Origin: Porticoccaceae bacterium
GTDB taxonomy: Bacteria; Pseudomonadota; Gammaproteobacteria; Pseudomonadales; Porticoccaceae
Direction: 5' to 3'
Length of the DNA: 37,978 nucleotides
Assembly: GCA_018663035.1 (NCBI GenBank)
Contig: JABJEX010000091.1
Location: 1 to 37,978, forward strand
A program made the translations under genes and the position numbers. Each line of letters opens with the position of its first letter. The stretch's first letter is position 1. The notes beneath the pieces were generated by a model that worked only from the letters and a program-made list of their open reading frames with translations, ran no database searches and had not been told where the DNA came from. This document shows, piece after piece, positions 4,663 to 15,426 of the stretch.

Positions 4663-6278
4663 CCAGACTTCGACGCCTCGCTAAAATTGCCCTTGTTGTG
4701 GGTAAGTACCGCCTCGACCTATTACTGCAAAAAGAGCACCTACCTTTCGCCATGCGCGCTCTACTAGCGCCAGCGGTGCTGTTTGGCAAGACTCAATTAG
4801 GCGGGGGTGAGCGTCTCAGGCTAGCGCTGGAAGAACTGGGCCCCATATTTATCAAGTTTGGACAACTACTGTCGACGCGGCCAGATCTGGTGCCGGCCGA
4901 TATCTGTGCAGAGTTGGCCCAGCTTCAGGACAGAGTCCCGCCTTTCTCGTCAAATATTTTTAAAAGTAATGTCGAGGCCGCACTACAGGGTAGTGTAGAC
5001 GATTTATTTTACAGTTTTGAGGCTGACCCCCTGGCATCCGCCTCGGTGGCACAGGTGCATGCGGCTGTCCTAGCTGATGGTCGGGAGGTAGTAGTAAAAG
5101 CAGTGCGCCCAGGCATCGAAAAAATTATCCGCCAAGATATAGCGCTGATGTACAGCCTTGCCGAGCTACTAAAAAAATACAGCGAAGATGGTCGTCGATT
5201 AAGACCACTGGAAGTCGTATCGGACTACGAGGTGGTGATTCTCGAAGAGCTAAATCTGCAATCAGAGGGCGCCAATGCTTCATTATTGCGCCACAACTGG
5301 GATGGCTCACCACTGCTGTATGTACCGGAGATTTACTGGCCCTACTCCAATCAAAATGTTCTGGTCATGGAGCGCATTTACGGTATCCCTGTGACCAATA
5401 TGACAGAGTTGGAAGCAGCTGGTGTCGATATGAAACTGCTGGCTGAACGGGGCGTAGAAATCTTTTTTACCCAAGTATTCGAGCACAACTTCTTTCATGC
5501 GGATATGCACCCTGGCAATATTTTTGTCGATGCTAGACAGCCAAAGGCGCCGAGTTACCTAGCCATCGACTGCGCCATTATGGGCTCGCTGTCAAACGAT
5601 GATCAGTTTTATCTAGCGCGCAATCTGCTGGCCATTTTTAATCGTGATTACCGACAGGTCGCCGAACTCCATATCCGCTCTGGCTGGGTACCCAAGGGCA
5701 CCCCTGTCAATGAGTTTACCGGTGCAATCCGCTCAGTCTGTGAGCCGATTTTCGAGCGACCTTTAAACGAAATATCACTTGGCCATATGCTGATTAATCT
5801 ATTTACCACAGCGCGGCGATTTAATATGGAAGTGCAGCCCTCGCTAGTGCTGCTGCAAAAAACCCTGTTGAATATTGAAGGGCTGGGCCGACAGATGTAC
5901 CCCCAATTGGATCTGTGGAGCACCGCTCAGCCATTTTTAGATAAATGGTTAAAAGATCGCTACTCACCCAAAAGTATAGTTAGGCAATTCAAACGGCATC
6001 TGCCTGATTGGTTGGAGCATCTGCCCCAGATACCACCGATGATATTTCAGGCCTTGCAGACAATGCAGCAGCCTCCAGGCCAGGTCAGTACCACTGCACC
6101 TGCGATTCATTCGGAAAGCCCGGCCAAATCCACTAAATGGCTCAACCGAATTGGTGCTGCTGTGACTGGTGTAGGCGTGGGTCTGGCATCCCCCCACTGG
6201 GCGGAATCCATAAGTCAGATTCCTGGTAGTAGCCTAATACTGATCAGCTTAGGGCTACTGTTACTGCTATTGCGCTAG
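4659..6278 (+). CDS. ubiB: atypical kinase/ATPase UbiB for ubiquinone synthesis
   Basis: UbiB-family protein kinase-like ATPase, membrane anchored, needed for ubiquinone synthesis, probably by handling the lipid intermediates. Visible are the KxGQ motif KFGQ (66-69), the alanine-rich loop [11 protein letters not shown] (126-136) replacing the kinase glycine loop, the lysine in VVVKAVRPG (about 147), [13 protein letters not shown] with the catalytic Asp and Asn, and hydrophobic segments in the last 45 residues. The metal-binding motif reads DCA (in [11 protein letters not shown]) where E. coli UbiB has DCG, a substitution at a normally invariant glycine. The 539-residue length is normal. Start GTG 4659 overlaps the ubiJ stop by four bases. 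Confidence 0.96.
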
Positions 6279-10476: not shown

Positions 10477-10854
10477 CTAATCCAGAGCTTCAAAGCGCAT
10501 GGAGATGCTATTGACGCAGTGCCGTATATTCTTGGTGGTAAAGCCTTCGCCCTCAAATACATGCCCTAAATGACCATCGCAATTAGTGCAGACAATCTCT
10601 ACACGCCGACCATCGGCGTCTGGGTAACGGCTCACAGCACCAGGTATTTCATCGTCAAAACTCGGCCAGCCGCAGTGTGATGGAAATTTATGCGCGGAGA
10701 GGTAAAGCGGTGCATTGCACTGCCTACACAGGTACCTGCCCTCTGCCTGATTGTCGGTATACTCGCCGACGAATGGACGCTCGGTACCTTTGTGAAGAAT
10801 TACATATTGCTCGTCTGCTGTAAGCTGGTTGTATTCTCTATCGCTCAATGTCAT
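10477..10854 (-). CDS. msrB: peptide-methionine (R)-S-oxide reductase MsrB
   Basis: Repairs oxidised methionine (the R-sulfoxide) in proteins using thioredoxin. The 125 residues show two zinc-binding CxxC pairs (C43/C46 in CRQC, C89/C92 in CTNC), the CGWPSF motif (61-66), HLGHVF, and the catalytic cysteine C113 in RHCVNSISM, where many relatives have RYCVNS. No signal peptide, so cytoplasmic. A strong AGGAG site precedes the ATG. The gene starts nine bases after the stop of the upstream kinase, so it is probably the last gene of the TPP-riboswitch operon. Confidence 0.96.
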
Positions 10855-10863
10855 CTCCTAATT

Positions 10864-11550
10864 CTAAAGTTGCACTGCCAGCCATAACTTGTCCATGGCC
10901 TGTTTGACCTGCAACAGAGCCTGCAATGACTCCTGTTGCTGATGGTTGTTAATATAATCTGCTCCATATAGACGCAGAAAATCTAGCCCTGGATGACCCA
11001 AGGCGGCGTATTCCCAATCGATAATAAACAGCCCCCTGTCAGTCTCGATTATATTCTCTGGCACCATGTCGTGATGGCAAATCACTGGATGCCAATCACC
11101 TTCGTCCACTAACTTAGCCGCCCGCTCTATATGCTCTCTTACCTGATCAGAGACCGTCTGACTGGACAGTTGACGAAGATACTGCTGGCAGTACTGCAAA
11201 TAGTTGCGTGGGCTATCCCCGGGCATTTCAATGTTTTGGACTCTGCGCAGCGCTGATGAGAGCGCCTCCATGGTGTGACTGTTTTTAAGGCTCTTTTGGC
11301 TAAGGGTTAGGCCGACTATGAACTCTGAAACCATGACCTCTGGACCAATTGAGTAGACCTTTGGAACAACCCCTGTTGGCTCCAATAGCTTGAGTATCTT
11401 TGCTTCGCGATGACGATCTATGCCGAGCTTGACACTGTCTGCAGAATTAACTCGTACGACTGCCTGAAACGCGCCAGAGGCCACTAGGAAGGTTTCATTG
11501 GTTCGCCCACCCACAAGCTCCTCTAGGACCTGGGGAGCCTCGGAAAGCAT
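10864..11550 (-). CDS. APH/choline-kinase-fold phosphotransferase, probable thiamine kinase
   Basis: Small-molecule kinase of the aminoglycoside phosphotransferase/choline kinase fold. It has the nucleotide loop LVGGRTNETFLV near the N-terminus, the catalytic loop VICHHDMVPENI (HxDxxxxN) and the metal motif IDWEYAALGHPGLDF. I place the start at 11550 (228 residues): an AGGAG sits eight bases upstream and the kinase fold begins right there. A frame opening at 11712 would overlap pnuT by over 100 bases. The family phosphorylates choline, thiamine or similar alcohols; position after a TPP riboswitch, TonB receptor and PnuT-like permease points to thiamine, as in E. coli ThiK. The substrate is inferred. 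Confidence 0.8.
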   Translation of the reverse strand: MLSEAPQVLEELVGGRTNETFLVASGAFQAVVRVNSADSVKLGIDRHREAKILKLLEPTGVVPKVYSIGPEVMVSEFIVGLTLSQKSLKNSHTMEALSSALRRVQNIEMPGDSPRNYLQYCQQYLRQLSSQTVSDQVREHIERAAKLVDEGDWHPVICHHDMVPENIIETDRGLFIIDWEYAALGHPGLDFLRLYGADYINNHQQQESLQALLQVKQAMDKLWLAVQL

Positions 11551-11581
11551 ATCAGAGTCTCCTATGTCCCACTGCTGCCAG

Positions 11582-12184
11582 TTAGATAGGGTCTGTTGTA
11601 GCAGTTGCTGCGTTCTGTTCGAAATAGCTGTTTCTCCAAGCAATATAGCCGACCACCGACAGGCCCAAGTATAACGTAAGCATAGCCGCGGTTTGATAGA
11701 GCTCTCTATCAATAAACAGATAGATGGAAACAGAATTAATAACCATCCAATAGAGCCAGTTTTCTACAACCTTCCGCGCCACCATCAGAGTAGTAACAAT
11801 ACTGGCCCAAGTGGTGAATGAGTCCAGATAGGGTAACTTGGCATCCGTGGTGACTGTTAAAAAATAACCGGATATTAGACTGGTCGACAGAGTCAGAACC
11901 ACAACGCAAAGGTGCTGCTGCGCAGTCCAGCGACAGAGGGGCAATCCCTGTTTAACTGTGCCACCCCGCTGCCATTGATACCAGCCATATACCGCCATTG
12001 CCATGTAGTAGACATTAAGAGCCGACTCCATATAAAGGCTAACATCGCCAAATATCCAAACGTAAATGGCAGTGCTAAAAAAGGCACAGTACCAGCACAG
12101 ACTATTTTCTTTCATGGCCAAGACGAGGTAGGCGATAGACAGGGCTACCGCCAGACTTTCAAGATTCAGCCATGCAAACATCAT
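11582..12184 (-). CDS. pnuT: PnuC-family transporter, probable thiamine permease PnuT
   Basis: Integral inner membrane protein of the PnuC family, which carries vitamin precursors (nicotinamide riboside for PnuC, thiamine for PnuT) by facilitated diffusion driven by intracellular phosphorylation. The 200 residues form about seven hydrophobic segments, with aromatic-rich motifs SALNVYYMAMAVYGWYQW and ENWLYWMVINSVSIYLF typical of the family. The ATG follows directly on the stop of the thiamine-binding gene (TAAATG). A TPP riboswitch upstream and a kinase downstream favour thiamine over nicotinamide riboside. Family is sure, substrate inferred from context. Confidence 0.85.
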   Translation of the reverse strand: MMFAWLNLESLAVALSIAYLVLAMKENSLCWYCAFFSTAIYVWIFGDVSLYMESALNVYYMAMAVYGWYQWQRGGTVKQGLPLCRWTAQQHLCVVVLTLSTSLISGYFLTVTTDAKLPYLDSFTTWASIVTTLMVARKVVENWLYWMVINSVSIYLFIDRELYQTAAMLTLYLGLSVVGYIAWRNSYFEQNAATATTDPI

Positions 12185-12433
12185 TTAAAGAGCCTCATAA
12201 CCAGGGATAATCTTGGCGACATAGATTGCCATATTGAACTCTCGATAACATTCGGCAATTGTCTCCTGCACAGCAGCCATGGCGTGCTCGAAGCTACCCT
12301 GCACCACAGTACTGGTTGGGAACGTGGAGACCTTAAGATTCTCGTACTGATTAATTTTTTGGATAAATCCATCAATGGGAGGAATAAAATCCTCCCGAGT
12401 GGGATACATACTTATATCAATGGTAACTTGCAT
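12185..12433 (-). CDS. YkoF/MTH1187-like small thiamine-binding protein
   Basis: An 82-residue protein resembling the YkoF/Thiamine_BP group, small ferredoxin-fold proteins of which several bind thiamine or hydroxymethylpyrimidine. Visible family-like features are the opening VTIDISMYPT, the central VSTFPTSTVVQGSF and a closing YVAKIIPG strand. It has no signal peptide and so should be cytoplasmic. A clear AGGAG lies five bases before its ATG. It lies 26 bases after the TonB receptor and its stop abuts the pnuT start, so it is firmly in the riboswitch-controlled operon. It may buffer thiamine between permease and kinase; that role is inference. Confidence 0.75.
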   Translation of the reverse strand: MQVTIDISMYPTREDFIPPIDGFIQKINQYENLKVSTFPTSTVVQGSFEHAMAAVQETIAECYREFNMAIYVAKIIPGYEAL

Positions 12434-12459
12434 GATCGCTCCTTATTCGCCAAGGACTG

Positions 12460-14553
12460 TTAAAAGTCATATTTGCCAGTCAGACCAAATACTCGCGGAG
12501 CGCCATACTGATAGTAGGGTTCAGTTTCGTACCCTTTGCGAGGATCGTTACCAAAGCTACCGAAGCCACGTACAATCACATCTTCATCGGTAAGGTTGCG
12601 ACCCCATAGAGATAGCTGCCAATCTCCAGTATCGTAAGTCAGATTGGCATTGAGTAGCTCATAGGATTGAGTCTTTGCACTGTGACGCGATGATAGGAAG
12701 AATTCATCCTTACCTTCGATATCCAGACCGACCGCAAGGCTGTCAGTTACTTGAAAGCTGGCGCCTAGCGCAAATTGATAGCTGGGAGCATGCGCCTGTT
12801 CTCTACCATCTAATGTCTCTGAAAGCGGCGTATCGAATTCTGTCTTGAGTAACCCGATACTACCAAACAGCGCCACAGTCTCGCTGGCAAACCAATTGAA
12901 CTCAAGTTCAGTACCCATATTAGTGCCCTTGGCAGCGTTGCCAAAATAGTCGGTGAAACTAGTCGCATTAGTCTCGTCGATGGGCTGCACAAGGGACTGC
13001 TTAATTTGAATATCATCCCTTAGCTGATAAAACACAGCCAACTGCGCCTGCAACGACCCATCCAACCAGAGCCCTTTTACACCGCCTTCAATATTCCACA
13101 TCTGTTCAGTGTCAAACTCACGATCTACGGCATCGAGAGCAGGGTCACTATTGACACCACCAGCTTTATATCCACGGGATACCAGACCGTAGACCATGGG
13201 TCCTGAAGCAGTCCTGTACTGCAGTGCAACACGAGCACCCCAGAGGTCTTCATCCACGCCGTGATCTATCATCTCAGAATCGCTGTAGTCAGCCTCTCGA
13301 TTCTCAAGTCGCAGTCCCGTCACCAGTGTTAGATTGGAAGATAGATGGCTGTCCAACTGCGCATAGATGGCCCGATTGCTAGTTTTAAAATCACTAACAA
13401 AATCACCGGCGGCAAAACTGTACTGTCTCAAAAGCGCCTCGTCCTGCTCTCGCCAATATGCCCCCAACACCCAGTCAGTGCTGCCATTCAAAATCTGTCC
13501 GCCATCCTTAGAGGTAAGACGCACATCTAGGCTACCGTTATGGCTATCGCGAATATAATTATCCACCGACTCATAGCCGTCATAGATGCAGACGAAATCA
13601 ACGCAGATATCGCTGTAAGTCCAGTCTTCGTCATAGCCATATTCAAGATTGTTATTGGCATAACTCAAAGTACTGGCTAGCTCGAAACTAGCATGGCCCT
13701 GCCAGCTACCCTGCAGTGCAACAGCAGTTGCCTCGTGGCGATCCTGGCCTGGGTTGTCTGACAATGTGTTACGGCTGTTATCCAGACTAAAGGCGTCATA
13801 GCCATTATCAGCTTCCACATGGAAAATCGTGAGCTTGAGGTTGGTATCCTCAGTAGCCTGCCAATCTAAAATAGATCTCAGACTCAGCTCATCAATATTG
13901 TTGGTGTCCGAGCGACTTAGAAAATCATTTTCAACATAGCCATCACTGCTGTGCTTTTGCACTGCCAATCTAAAACCAAGGTTGTTACTAAGCGGCCCAC
14001 CGACCCCAGCACTGAGGGTGCGGCTATTATAGTCAGCCAATGCGACCTCTAGATTGCCCTGTAACTGCTCAGAGGGCTGCACAGCTCGCAGACTTATCAG
14101 GCCAGCTAGTGCGTTAGCACCATAGAGGGTCCCCTGCGGACCCCGCAGTATCTCGACTTGCTGAATGTCCATCGTGGTGGCAGCTCCAGCTATTCCGGTA
14201 AAATCAATACCATCCACCATAATGCCGACAGAGGGATTGAGGGGTTCAATAAACTGACTGCGCTCACCAATCCCACGAATCTGGATAAAGCGCCCTCGGG
14301 ACGCGCCGCTAGAAAAATTCACATTGGGGGCCGAATTAAGCAGGTCCTCCAAATGCCTAGCTTGGCGCTTAAGGATCAATTTATTATCGAACAGGGAAAT
14401 ACTTGCTGCAGATTCCAAGACTGTGGAGTCTCGAAGATCACCGCTGACAATAACTTCGTCAATGCCTGTGTCGGCAGAAGCTAGGGGCGCAAAAAAGTAG
14501 CAGGTCAGCGCAAAAACAAGCGGTCTAGGTGTGGAAAAATTAGTGGTATTCAT
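12460..14553 (-). CDS. TonB-dependent outer membrane receptor, probable thiamine uptake
   Basis: A 697-residue TonB-dependent receptor. It has a signal peptide (cleavage probably after ASA, residue 27), a TonB-box-like IDEVIVSG (31-38), a plug domain with QIRGIGERSQFIE and VEILRGPQGTLYGANALAG, and a 22-strand barrel ending in a terminal Phe (LTGKYDF), the outer membrane assembly signal. It takes up scarce ligands using proton-motive force passed by TonB. A TPP riboswitch directly upstream and the thiamine genes downstream make thiamine or a thiamine precursor the likely ligand. A GAGG site lies eight bases before the ATG. Family certain, ligand inferred. Confidence 0.93.
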   Translation of the reverse strand: MNTTNFSTPRPLVFALTCYFFAPLASADTGIDEVIVSGDLRDSTVLESAASISLFDNKLILKRQARHLEDLLNSAPNVNFSSGASRGRFIQIRGIGERSQFIEPLNPSVGIMVDGIDFTGIAGAATTMDIQQVEILRGPQGTLYGANALAGLISLRAVQPSEQLQGNLEVALADYNSRTLSAGVGGPLSNNLGFRLAVQKHSSDGYVENDFLSRSDTNNIDELSLRSILDWQATEDTNLKLTIFHVEADNGYDAFSLDNSRNTLSDNPGQDRHEATAVALQGSWQGHASFELASTLSYANNNLEYGYDEDWTYSDICVDFVCIYDGYESVDNYIRDSHNGSLDVRLTSKDGGQILNGSTDWVLGAYWREQDEALLRQYSFAAGDFVSDFKTSNRAIYAQLDSHLSSNLTLVTGLRLENREADYSDSEMIDHGVDEDLWGARVALQYRTASGPMVYGLVSRGYKAGGVNSDPALDAVDREFDTEQMWNIEGGVKGLWLDGSLQAQLAVFYQLRDDIQIKQSLVQPIDETNATSFTDYFGNAAKGTNMGTELEFNWFASETVALFGSIGLLKTEFDTPLSETLDGREQAHAPSYQFALGASFQVTDSLAVGLDIEGKDEFFLSSRHSAKTQSYELLNANLTYDTGDWQLSLWGRNLTDEDVIVRGFGSFGNDPRKGYETEPYYQYGAPRVFGLTGKYDF

Positions 14554-14631
14554 AGCATGAGCCTCAGTAACAATGGTTAAGGAGACCCGGAGTCAAGAGA
14601 CGGAGTGAAGGGCAAAAAACCAGTAGTCCTA

Positions 14632-14704
14632 TTCCTACGCCGGTATAATCCGGATCAGGTTCAAAGGGTACTTCTCAGGTCTGTTTGGGACCGCCCCTTA
14701 GGAA
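14632..14704 (-). ncRNA. TPP riboswitch (THI element)
   Basis: Read on the minus strand, this is a THI-box aptamer. Stem P1 is TTCCTA (14704-14699) pairing perfectly with TAGGAA (14637-14632). The conserved CTGAGA core is at 14678-14673, the pyrophosphate/pyrimidine-binding core ACCCTTTGAACCTGATC at 14669-14653, and the closing GGCGTAGG at 14641-14634. Seventy-eight bases separate it from the TonB receptor start. TPP riboswitches normally shut off thiamine uptake or synthesis genes when TPP is plentiful. Confidence 0.95.
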
Positions 14705-14712
14705 ACGCAGTC

Positions 14713-14742
14713 ATGATATCACCACGTGGATTAATCTTTCAA
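14713..14742 (-). promoter_or_regulatory. sigma-70 promoter of the TPP-riboswitch operon
   Basis: On the minus strand, TTGAAA (14742-14737) and TATCAT (14718-14713) are 18 bases apart. The predicted start site, near 14705, falls directly at the 5' strand of riboswitch stem P1, as needed for a cotranscriptionally folding aptamer. It sits between the Tag-like gene stop and the riboswitch. Confidence 0.6.
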
Positions 14743-14757
14743 CAGAGCAAATAATAC

Positions 14758-15426
14758 CTAGACGGTGCAAGACAGAATGCGACTTATCTGACAGAGAGGC
14801 CGCCCAGACTCGGCCCGCAGATCCTCAAAAACCTGCTCTACCAGCTTCAAGTCACGCTGCGAGGTAGGACTAAATTTCTTCATAAAACCATGATTAATCA
14901 GAGCATCGCAGACATCCTTGGTCAGCAAAAATGTGTCTCGGCCCATACTTCGCAGCATCATTGGCCCAGTATTACCACCTAGACGCGAACCCTGCTTTTT
15001 CATCTCGAGCCAAAGGCCAGTGATATTATCCTCGGGCCAGTGGGCTATAAATTCAGCAAAGCTGCCATGGCTACGCTGACGATCGAGAACATAGACCGCA
15101 TTGTTGCGCACTGCAACAATCTTAGTGAAGTTGCGCACAATACTCTTATCCTGAGCCAAGGCTTCTAATTTCTCATCACTAAAGTGCGCCACAGCCAACG
15201 GATTGAACTCAGCAAAGGCAGTTTCAAATCCTGACCATTTATTATCTATCACGCGCCAAACAAACCCTGCTCGGAAAATACAGCGCGACATCATCGACAA
15301 ATAGCGCGAATCTGGCTGCTCGGCTAACTGCGCTGCGGTTTTAGGGCGGGGCAAAATCGCCTCGAGTAACTCGGTGCCACCACGATTGGCAGCGGCAAGT
15401 TTATAAAGAGCACTAAACGAGGTCAT
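14758..15426 (-). CDS. DNA-3-methyladenine glycosylase I (Tag)-like protein
   Basis: A 222-residue protein related to the Tag family of base-excision DNA glycosylases, which remove alkylated adenine. Family-like segments are SRCIFRAGFVWRVIDNKWSG, FETAFAEFNPLAVAHFSDE, and IVRNFTKIVAVRNNAVYVLD in the middle, matching the Tag pattern of helices around the base pocket. The usual N-terminal zinc-binding CxW start of E. coli Tag is not seen, so this belongs to a divergent subgroup and its activity is not assured. It lies just upstream of the thiamine operon, which has its own promoter, and is downstream of a LysE-type gene on the same strand. Confidence 0.75.
   Translation of the reverse strand: MTSFSALYKLAAANRGGTELLEAILPRPKTAAQLAEQPDSRYLSMMSRCIFRAGFVWRVIDNKWSGFETAFAEFNPLAVAHFSDEKLEALAQDKSIVRNFTKIVAVRNNAVYVLDRQRSHGSFAEFIAHWPEDNITGLWLEMKKQGSRLGGNTGPMMLRSMGRDTFLLTKDVCDALINHGFMKKFSPTSQRDLKLVEQVFEDLRAESGRPLCQISRILSCTV

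Follow-up and report, generated by a model that had tools for sequence, protein, structure and literature searches.

Operons that join a thiamine pyrophosphate (TPP) riboswitch to the genes OMthi/omr1 and pnuT and to a kinase gene were reportedly described by Rodionov and colleagues in 2002, and PnuT of Shewanella woodyi is said, after work by Jaehme and colleagues in 2018, to be a thiamine permease that acts by facilitated diffusion. In most gut Bacteroidetes genomes examined such genes constitute a single operon, and in Bacteroides thetaiotaomicron without the biosynthetic operon, mutants lacking either the TPP-associated receptor or pnuT needed about ten times as much thiamine, according to the accessible part of PMC5613172. 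The stretch of DNA analysed here, 37,978 nucleotides of contig JABJEX010000091.1 from a Porticoccaceae bacterium and in the following called the window, carries on its minus strand between 10477 and 14742 what is very probably a TPP-repressed operon for the uptake and trapping of vitamin B1 in a B1-auxotrophic bacterium of the SAR92 clade. This type of operon is already known; the less expected part is an apparent exchange of the receptor gene between species.

On the minus strand the TPP aptamer is followed in order by the genes for a TonB-dependent receptor, a protein of 82 amino acids (aa), a PnuC-family permease, a ThiK-like kinase and MsrB, with intergenic gaps of 26, 0, 31 and 9 bases, which reproduces the five genes, the order and the gaps given in an earlier sequence-only reading of this DNA.

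14615..14708, minus strand: TPP riboswitch aptamer, RF00059 at 77.1 bits over the whole model (gathering score 54.3)
12460..14553, minus strand: TonB-dependent receptor of 697 aa, type A; Pfam plug 65.8 and barrel 101.2 bits, both above cut-off
12185..12433, minus strand: 82-aa protein with a predicted Thiamine_BP/DUF77/MTH1187 fold, from the predicted structure and the Foldseek matches 2ibo, 2eky and 1vk8
11582..12184, minus strand: PnuC-family permease (PnuT-like); NMN_transporter (PF04973) 165.8 bits, above cut-off
10864..11550, minus strand: APH-fold kinase, thiamine-kinase-like (ThiK/TnK); Choline_kinase 79.9 and APH 64.7 bits
10477..10854, minus strand: msrB, peptide methionine (R)-S-oxide reductase; NF004036 207.7 bits (cut-off 179), SelR 142.4 bits

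Sequence searches covered the genome of the window (2.02 Mb, completeness rating 100%), 22 congeners and 13 members of the order outside the genus. The aptamer, whose core the sequence-only reading had placed at 14632-14704, is confirmed by a match of RF00059 to 14708-14615 (model positions 1-105 of 105, E 1.1e-13), the sole Rfam family that reaches its gathering score in the window. One TPP riboswitch is present in the genome of the window (all 119 candidates scored), and one aptamer was found in each of 20 of the 22 congeners with at most 79 candidates scored per genome, the two others being 71% and 75% complete. Gene order was compared in 19 of these 20, omitting G013 with its aptamer at a contig edge; all five genes occur in identical order in 16/16 congeners whose stretch reaches msrB (in G009 msrB is truncated by the contig end, in G016 the receptor lies in two frames), while G001, G004 and G008, where contig or stretch ends inside the operon before msrB, were not counted. 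Because the five genes are collinear in all 16, their order is not due to chance.

Dependence on an external supply of vitamin B1, as suggested from the sequence alone, is supported by the search of the genome for thiC, thiG, thiE and thiL that was proposed along with it. The genome of the window, rated 100% complete, gave no match for thiC, thiE/thiamine phosphate (TMP) synthase, ThiN or thiamine pyrophosphokinase. The thiG model found only a fragment of 90 residues in a 328-aa frame, which scores 22.9 bits, or 23.2 bits with neighbours, against a cut-off of 23, four congeners having similar fragments at 27-28.5 bits, as against 297 to 381 bits for the main ThiG matches of relatives. ThiL is encoded on contig C76, unlinked to the operon, at 331.9 bits. 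Since without TMP synthase the pyrimidine and thiazole precursors could not be joined by a known route, intact thiamine or its phosphates would have to be acquired from outside, and this predicted dependence on intact B1 is well supported. Of the 13 members of the order that lie outside the genus, thiC is present in eight and PF04973 above its cut-off in the other five, with zero overlap, an arrangement expected once in 1287 by chance in a hand calculation; G029, which carries a PF04973 fragment below cut-off, is not among the five. The host would thus be a marine, B1-auxotrophic member of the SAR92 clade, an affiliation taken from its relatives, as the closest relatives of the 82-aa protein (best 80 of 97 relatives) are titled SAR92 clade, HTCC2207 and Porticoccaceae. 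SAR92 was long classed under Cellvibrionales. As the accessible part of PMC12442306 already calls Cellvibrionales obligate B1 auxotrophs that lack thiE and express omr1, auxotrophy is expected here rather than new. As a side observation, a 9.1-kb contig of congener G001 (G001:C232, locus L068) carries thiC, which the other 21 searched congeners lack, by contamination or by gain of the pathway; the GC content is 49.7% in this contig, 46.4% in the operon contig of G001 and 49.8% in the operon stretch of a congener, and the G001 bin has ratings of 80% for completeness and 4% for contamination.

No PF04973 match other than the permease occurs in the genome of the window. Residues W143 and W146 of the permease, the W-x-x-W pair of the PnuC/PnuT family, are invariant in 17/17 sequences. 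Context favours a PnuT-like permease that would serve thiamine, the best evidence being the mutual exclusion of thiC and PF04973 together with the single PnuC-family match and the single TPP switch of the genome. Among NCBIfam models ThiK matches the kinase best (E 1.2e-27). The enzyme falls within the APH/choline kinase superfamily, and its residues H159, D161, N166 and D178-W179-E180, the catalytic H-x-D-x4-N and DWE motifs of this superfamily, are invariant in 18/18 sequences. Separately, one contig of one bin, G009:C23, carries a second permease and a second msrB copy, perhaps by a mixture of strains; L140, from the same isolate and probably the same contig, has small protein, permease, kinase and msrB together.

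Control of the operon at the level of translation is suggested by four elements of the leader.

14649..14656, minus strand: GATCCGGA, aptamer strand and proposed anti-sequestor partner, by complementarity
14584..14591, minus strand: TCCGGGTC, proposed anti-sequestor partner, an 8-bp complement to 14656-14649
14582..14588, minus strand: GGGTCTC, 5' arm of a proposed hairpin that sequesters the Shine-Dalgarno sequence
14559..14565, minus strand: GAGGCTC, 3' arm of the proposed hairpin, including the Shine-Dalgarno GAGG

The Shine-Dalgarno sequence lies 8 bases upstream of the receptor ATG at 14553. As GGGTCTC (14588-14582) overlaps TCCGGGTC (14591-14584), the two helices are mutually exclusive, and the CCGG of GATCCGGA is also used by the aptamer fold. 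Compared with 300 shuffles of the linker, the fraction of shuffles with an equal or better anti-sequestor complement was 0.007 in the window, at most 0.02 in 20/20 leaders of the genus, which as those of related congeners are not independent counts, and at most 0.033 in 4/5 leaders of other families (G025, G030, G031 and G034). The aptamer side of this helix is near-invariant for reasons of its own and the informative part is the change of the end pair, which is A-U in 19/20 genus leaders and in G030, C-G in G031 and U-A in G034; it is broken in G005 and G025. In computed folds the free leader (-42.4 kcal/mol) includes the sequestor and not the native aptamer, while aptamer core plus sequestor reach -40.5 kcal/mol and the anti-sequestor fold -35.6 kcal/mol. 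The two alternative helices would likely provide a translational shut-off by TPP.

Upstream of the aptamer, where the sequence-only reading named one promoter, lies a promoter-like site.

14713..14742, minus strand: promoter-like site TTGAAA-18-TATCAT with an extended -10, 10/12 matches

A TG precedes the -10 of this site, and a motif TGnTAnnnT about 12 bases upstream of the aptamer CCTAAGG is, by eye, kept in 20/20 genus leaders. On the other hand, the -35 is not conserved among these leaders (by eye), and with eight promoter-like sites found in the region versus 6.7 expected in shuffles, the score says little by itself. The end of the presumed common transcript would be msrB, which terminates the operon in 16/16 congeners and in 44/80 loci of the wider set (the best 80 of the 97 relatives of the small protein); its product stays just under the TIGR00357 cut-off (108.1 vs 113.05). 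We know of no established place of msrB in thiamine salvage; a tie to the small protein would arise if TM0486, one of the solved proteins nearest to it, is linked to oxidative stress. Beyond the promoter-like site, the gene at 14758-15426, which adjoins the operon in part of the genus, encodes a member of the methyladenine-glycosylase family (Pfam Adenine_glyco 64.4 bits), far below the NCBIfam tag cut-off (40.6 vs 232.5).

The second gene of the operon encodes a single domain of the order beta-alpha-beta-beta-alpha-beta, modelled with a predicted local distance difference test score (pLDDT) of 91 and a predicted template modelling score (pTM) of 0.82. Sequence matches are weak (TM0486 E 0.0041, YkoF E 0.13), while all 14 best Foldseek rows are SP2199, MJ1052, TM0486, a Bacillus cereus DUF77 protein, YBL001c or MTH1187. 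By eye no signal-like N terminus is present, so the protein is probably cytosolic; its proposed role is that of a buffer for free thiamine next to the kinase. The permease gene is also present in 67/80 loci of the wider set. Two contigs titled otherwise, L126 (Bacteroidetes) and L142 (Rhodothermales), carry the small protein at 68% and 62% identity to that of the window together with the permease, being mis-binned or the product of transfer. Among 13 loci scanned for RNA families, three SAR86-titled ones, L143, L145 and L147, have a tRNA gene that ends about 20 bases before the start of the small-protein gene (around 5908-6246), which looks like an insertion at this site, and the locus holds no TPP switch.

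The receptor, with an N terminus that by eye resembles a signal peptide, is probably a thiamine receptor (OMthi/omr1), for which its TPP-switch context speaks. A receptor match at E 1e-60 is found in 25/36 genomes, at a single place in each (the two pieces in G016 taken as one gene; 31 first-look candidates scored in larger genomes). Within the genus the receptors are of three types, A, B and C, which are about 39-47% identical to each other. Type B, found in G010, G012, G017 and G001, forms one clade on the receptor tree (57 of 81 rows, three of them B) with an SH-aLRT support of 100. On the tree of the partner genes (small protein, permease, kinase and msrB; 56 rows, without G001, whose contig L087 ends in the permease), each of the three B rows instead has a type A species as its supported sister (pairs L110/L111, L079/L069 and L081/L082), and forcing the B rows together is rejected with a p-AU of 4.8e-5, which is indicative as this group was chosen once the data had been seen. 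Two of these pairs are contigs of G010/G021 (L110/L111) and of G012/G018: permease plus kinase are 87% and 86% identical, respectively, MsrB 96% and 93%, and the receptor 45% in both. Across the leader, DNA identity in the pairs is about 90-100%. Near the start codon or the signal peptide it falls, to values of mostly 35-70% within the receptor gene, and it rises again over approximately the last 10-20 codons in L110/L111 and L081/L082 and less sharply in L079/L069; G001/G022 show a similar pattern. Type C sits on deeper and longer branches, and the evidence is less clear. From conflicting trees and breakpoints we infer that the receptor gene has been exchanged as a cassette between species, with the leader and the downstream genes staying in place. 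In the G016 contig (L052/L073) the receptor gene is split into two overlapping frames, by sequencing error or as a broken gene.

A number of findings weigh against the operon as a TPP-repressed system of B1 uptake. The ThiK model TIGR02721 reaches 96.7 bits on the kinase against a cut-off of 299.45, which is why the enzyme is said to work like ThiK rather than to be ThiK, and the NCBIfam equivalog for PnuC, the nicotinamide riboside transporter, passes on the permease (70.6 vs 42.45). Thiamine_BP (PF01910) attains 20.7 bits on the small protein (Pfam cut-off 24.9), so that of the YkoF-like protein named previously the DUF77-type predicted fold stands and the Pfam family does not. The 9.1-kb contig of G001 carries, besides the one thiC among 22 congeners, also thiG and a thiE-like frame, and in G018 the TMP-synthase model matches weakly, with 31.3 bits (neighbours included) against a cut-off of 27, these two being the only TMP-synthase matches in the genus. 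A second msrB match on contig C97 rejects the operon msrB as sole copy of the genome, and msrB was not found in the operon stretches of G025, G030, G031 and G032. In 13/80 loci, all SAR86-titled and one of them (L136) ending 33 bases past the gene, the small protein lies away from permease and kinase, by which a constant place in the operon is rejected; of the 14 genomes concerned (13 loci plus SAR86-titled L101, where the gene and a TPP-receptor operon adjoin each other back to back), which carry no completeness rating, nine have a TPP switch that is followed by a receptor homologue in 9/9. The small protein thus seems tied to thiamine uptake by the company of genes in the genome and not by a fixed operon. 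In B. thetaiotaomicron, moreover, thiamine made little difference to the transcripts of receptor and pnuT, and strains with intact biosynthesis were unaffected by single deletions, as stated in the accessible part of PMC5613172. If the permease were a true PnuC for nicotinamide riboside that came under a TPP switch by chance, with a kinase for choline or another alcohol, the PnuC equivalog, Choline_kinase as best Pfam match of the kinase and the best solved sequence relatives (PnuC 4qtn and choline kinases, respectively) would be accounted for; this is highly improbable given that every full-length PF04973 match in the genus stands beside a TPP aptamer on its contig, except for the second copy in G009, that the genome of the window has no other such match, that thiC and PF04973 exclude each other and that the kinase is matched best by ThiK.

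The leader of the uptake operon does not support its switch in every respect. G032 shows neither anti-sequestor nor sequestor helix, the sequestor helix alone is weak, with shuffle fractions of 0.047-0.137 in the 16/20 genus leaders scored (G003, G006, G014 and G015, with the start placed too far downstream, were left out), inspection by eye shows a mismatch within this helix in G006 and G014, and the whole leader folds no better than shuffles (z -0.23), so whole-leader stability was rejected as support. TPP switches can work at the level of transcription or translation (PMC5613172, accessible part), and a run of six T at 14619-14614 at the end of the aptamer match might suit a riboswitch that ends transcription, intrinsically or by Rho, instead of hiding the Shine-Dalgarno sequence; we regard this as unlikely, since a terminator scan found no hairpin before this run on the minus strand, which rejects an intrinsic terminator, and several congeners (G001, G004 and G005) lack the run and retain the anti-sequestor complement. 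For the receptors, the deep split of types A, B and C at one and the same locus might indicate ordinary divergence or the sorting of old duplicates by loss, and both trees carry long-branch warnings, one of which names the B rows with L101. Such an origin appears quite unlikely in the light of three supported backbone sister pairs that differ in receptor type, of an identity that drops within the receptor gene and is regained towards its end, and of the single receptor place in each matching genome, by which tandem duplicates are not seen. Exchange of the receptor cassette is preferred over both. Tentatively, the receptor of SAR92 bacteria might even be an exchangeable surface module, in which homologous recombination at the conserved leader or signal peptide and at the last codons and downstream genes swaps A and B between species without replacing the TPP switch, binding protein, permease or kinase. 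The likely drivers would then be phages or bacteriocins that use the receptor; an obligate B1 auxotroph could not lose its sole receptor and would have to replace it. In general, surface receptors are known to be exchanged. A limited literature search found no report of exchange of a thiamine receptor, which does not imply its absence from print.

How the uptake operon might work can be outlined, each substrate being a predicted one. At low TPP the open aptamer would allow GATCCGGA to pair with TCCGGGTC, leaving the Shine-Dalgarno sequence free and the operon translated. The receptor would carry thiamine across the outer membrane with energy from TonB, facilitated diffusion through the PnuT-like permease would take it across the inner membrane, the 82-aa protein in the cytosol would bind free thiamine, and the ThiK-like kinase would trap it as thiamine phosphate, from which ThiL, encoded elsewhere, would make TPP. 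At high TPP the aptamer would close and release GGGTCTC to pair with GAGGCTC over the Shine-Dalgarno sequence, by which translation would stop. The sequence-only reading as a thiamine salvage system is supported; "complete" goes too far, as the operon leads no further than thiamine phosphate and depends on the unlinked ThiL, and msrB has no evident role. As SAR92 has cultured strains, strict dependence on intact B1, and not on precursors, via one operon is directly testable. Receptor exchange, if true, would be a natural case of an essential nutrient receptor replaced in place and would be relevant to the ways in which vitamin auxotrophs withstand phages that might enter through vitamin receptors.

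Compared with characterised proteins, the small protein resembles YkoF of Bacillus and TM0486, MTH1187 and MJ1052 in predicted fold, single-domain size and thiamine context, TM0486 and YkoF being among its nearest solved sequences. YkoF, however, is about twice as long and is the partner of the YkoEDC transporter, whereas the protein here is paired with a PnuT-like permease. The permease shares with PnuT the PnuC family, W143/W146 and the TPP context; its substrate is predicted, and sequence comparison found a single solved relative, a PnuC. Likewise, the kinase has ThiK/YcfN thiamine kinase as its best NCBIfam match and keeps the catalytic residues, although its score is below the cut-off.

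A related case is omr1 of the marine B1 auxotrophs SAR86 and Cellvibrionales; for two SAR86 clusters the accessible part of PMC10881298 reports a TPP switch close to omr1. The word SAR92 does not occur in PMC12442306 or PMC10881298, the accessible parts of which mention neither a DUF77 gene in the operon nor receptor exchange. A like gene set is found in the OMthi/omr1-pnuT-kinase operons of B. thetaiotaomicron and others, which likewise consist of a TPP aptamer, a TonB-dependent receptor, a PnuC-family permease and a thiamine-phosphorylating enzyme. In contrast to those, the enzyme here is an APH-fold ThiK-like kinase and not Tnr3, a DUF77-type protein stands between receptor and permease, msrB is found at the end, and no de novo pathway was found in the genome. 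To the known type of operon this locus thus adds the DUF77-type gene inside it, the terminal msrB, a conserved anti-sequestor complement in the leader and the proposed exchange of the receptor.

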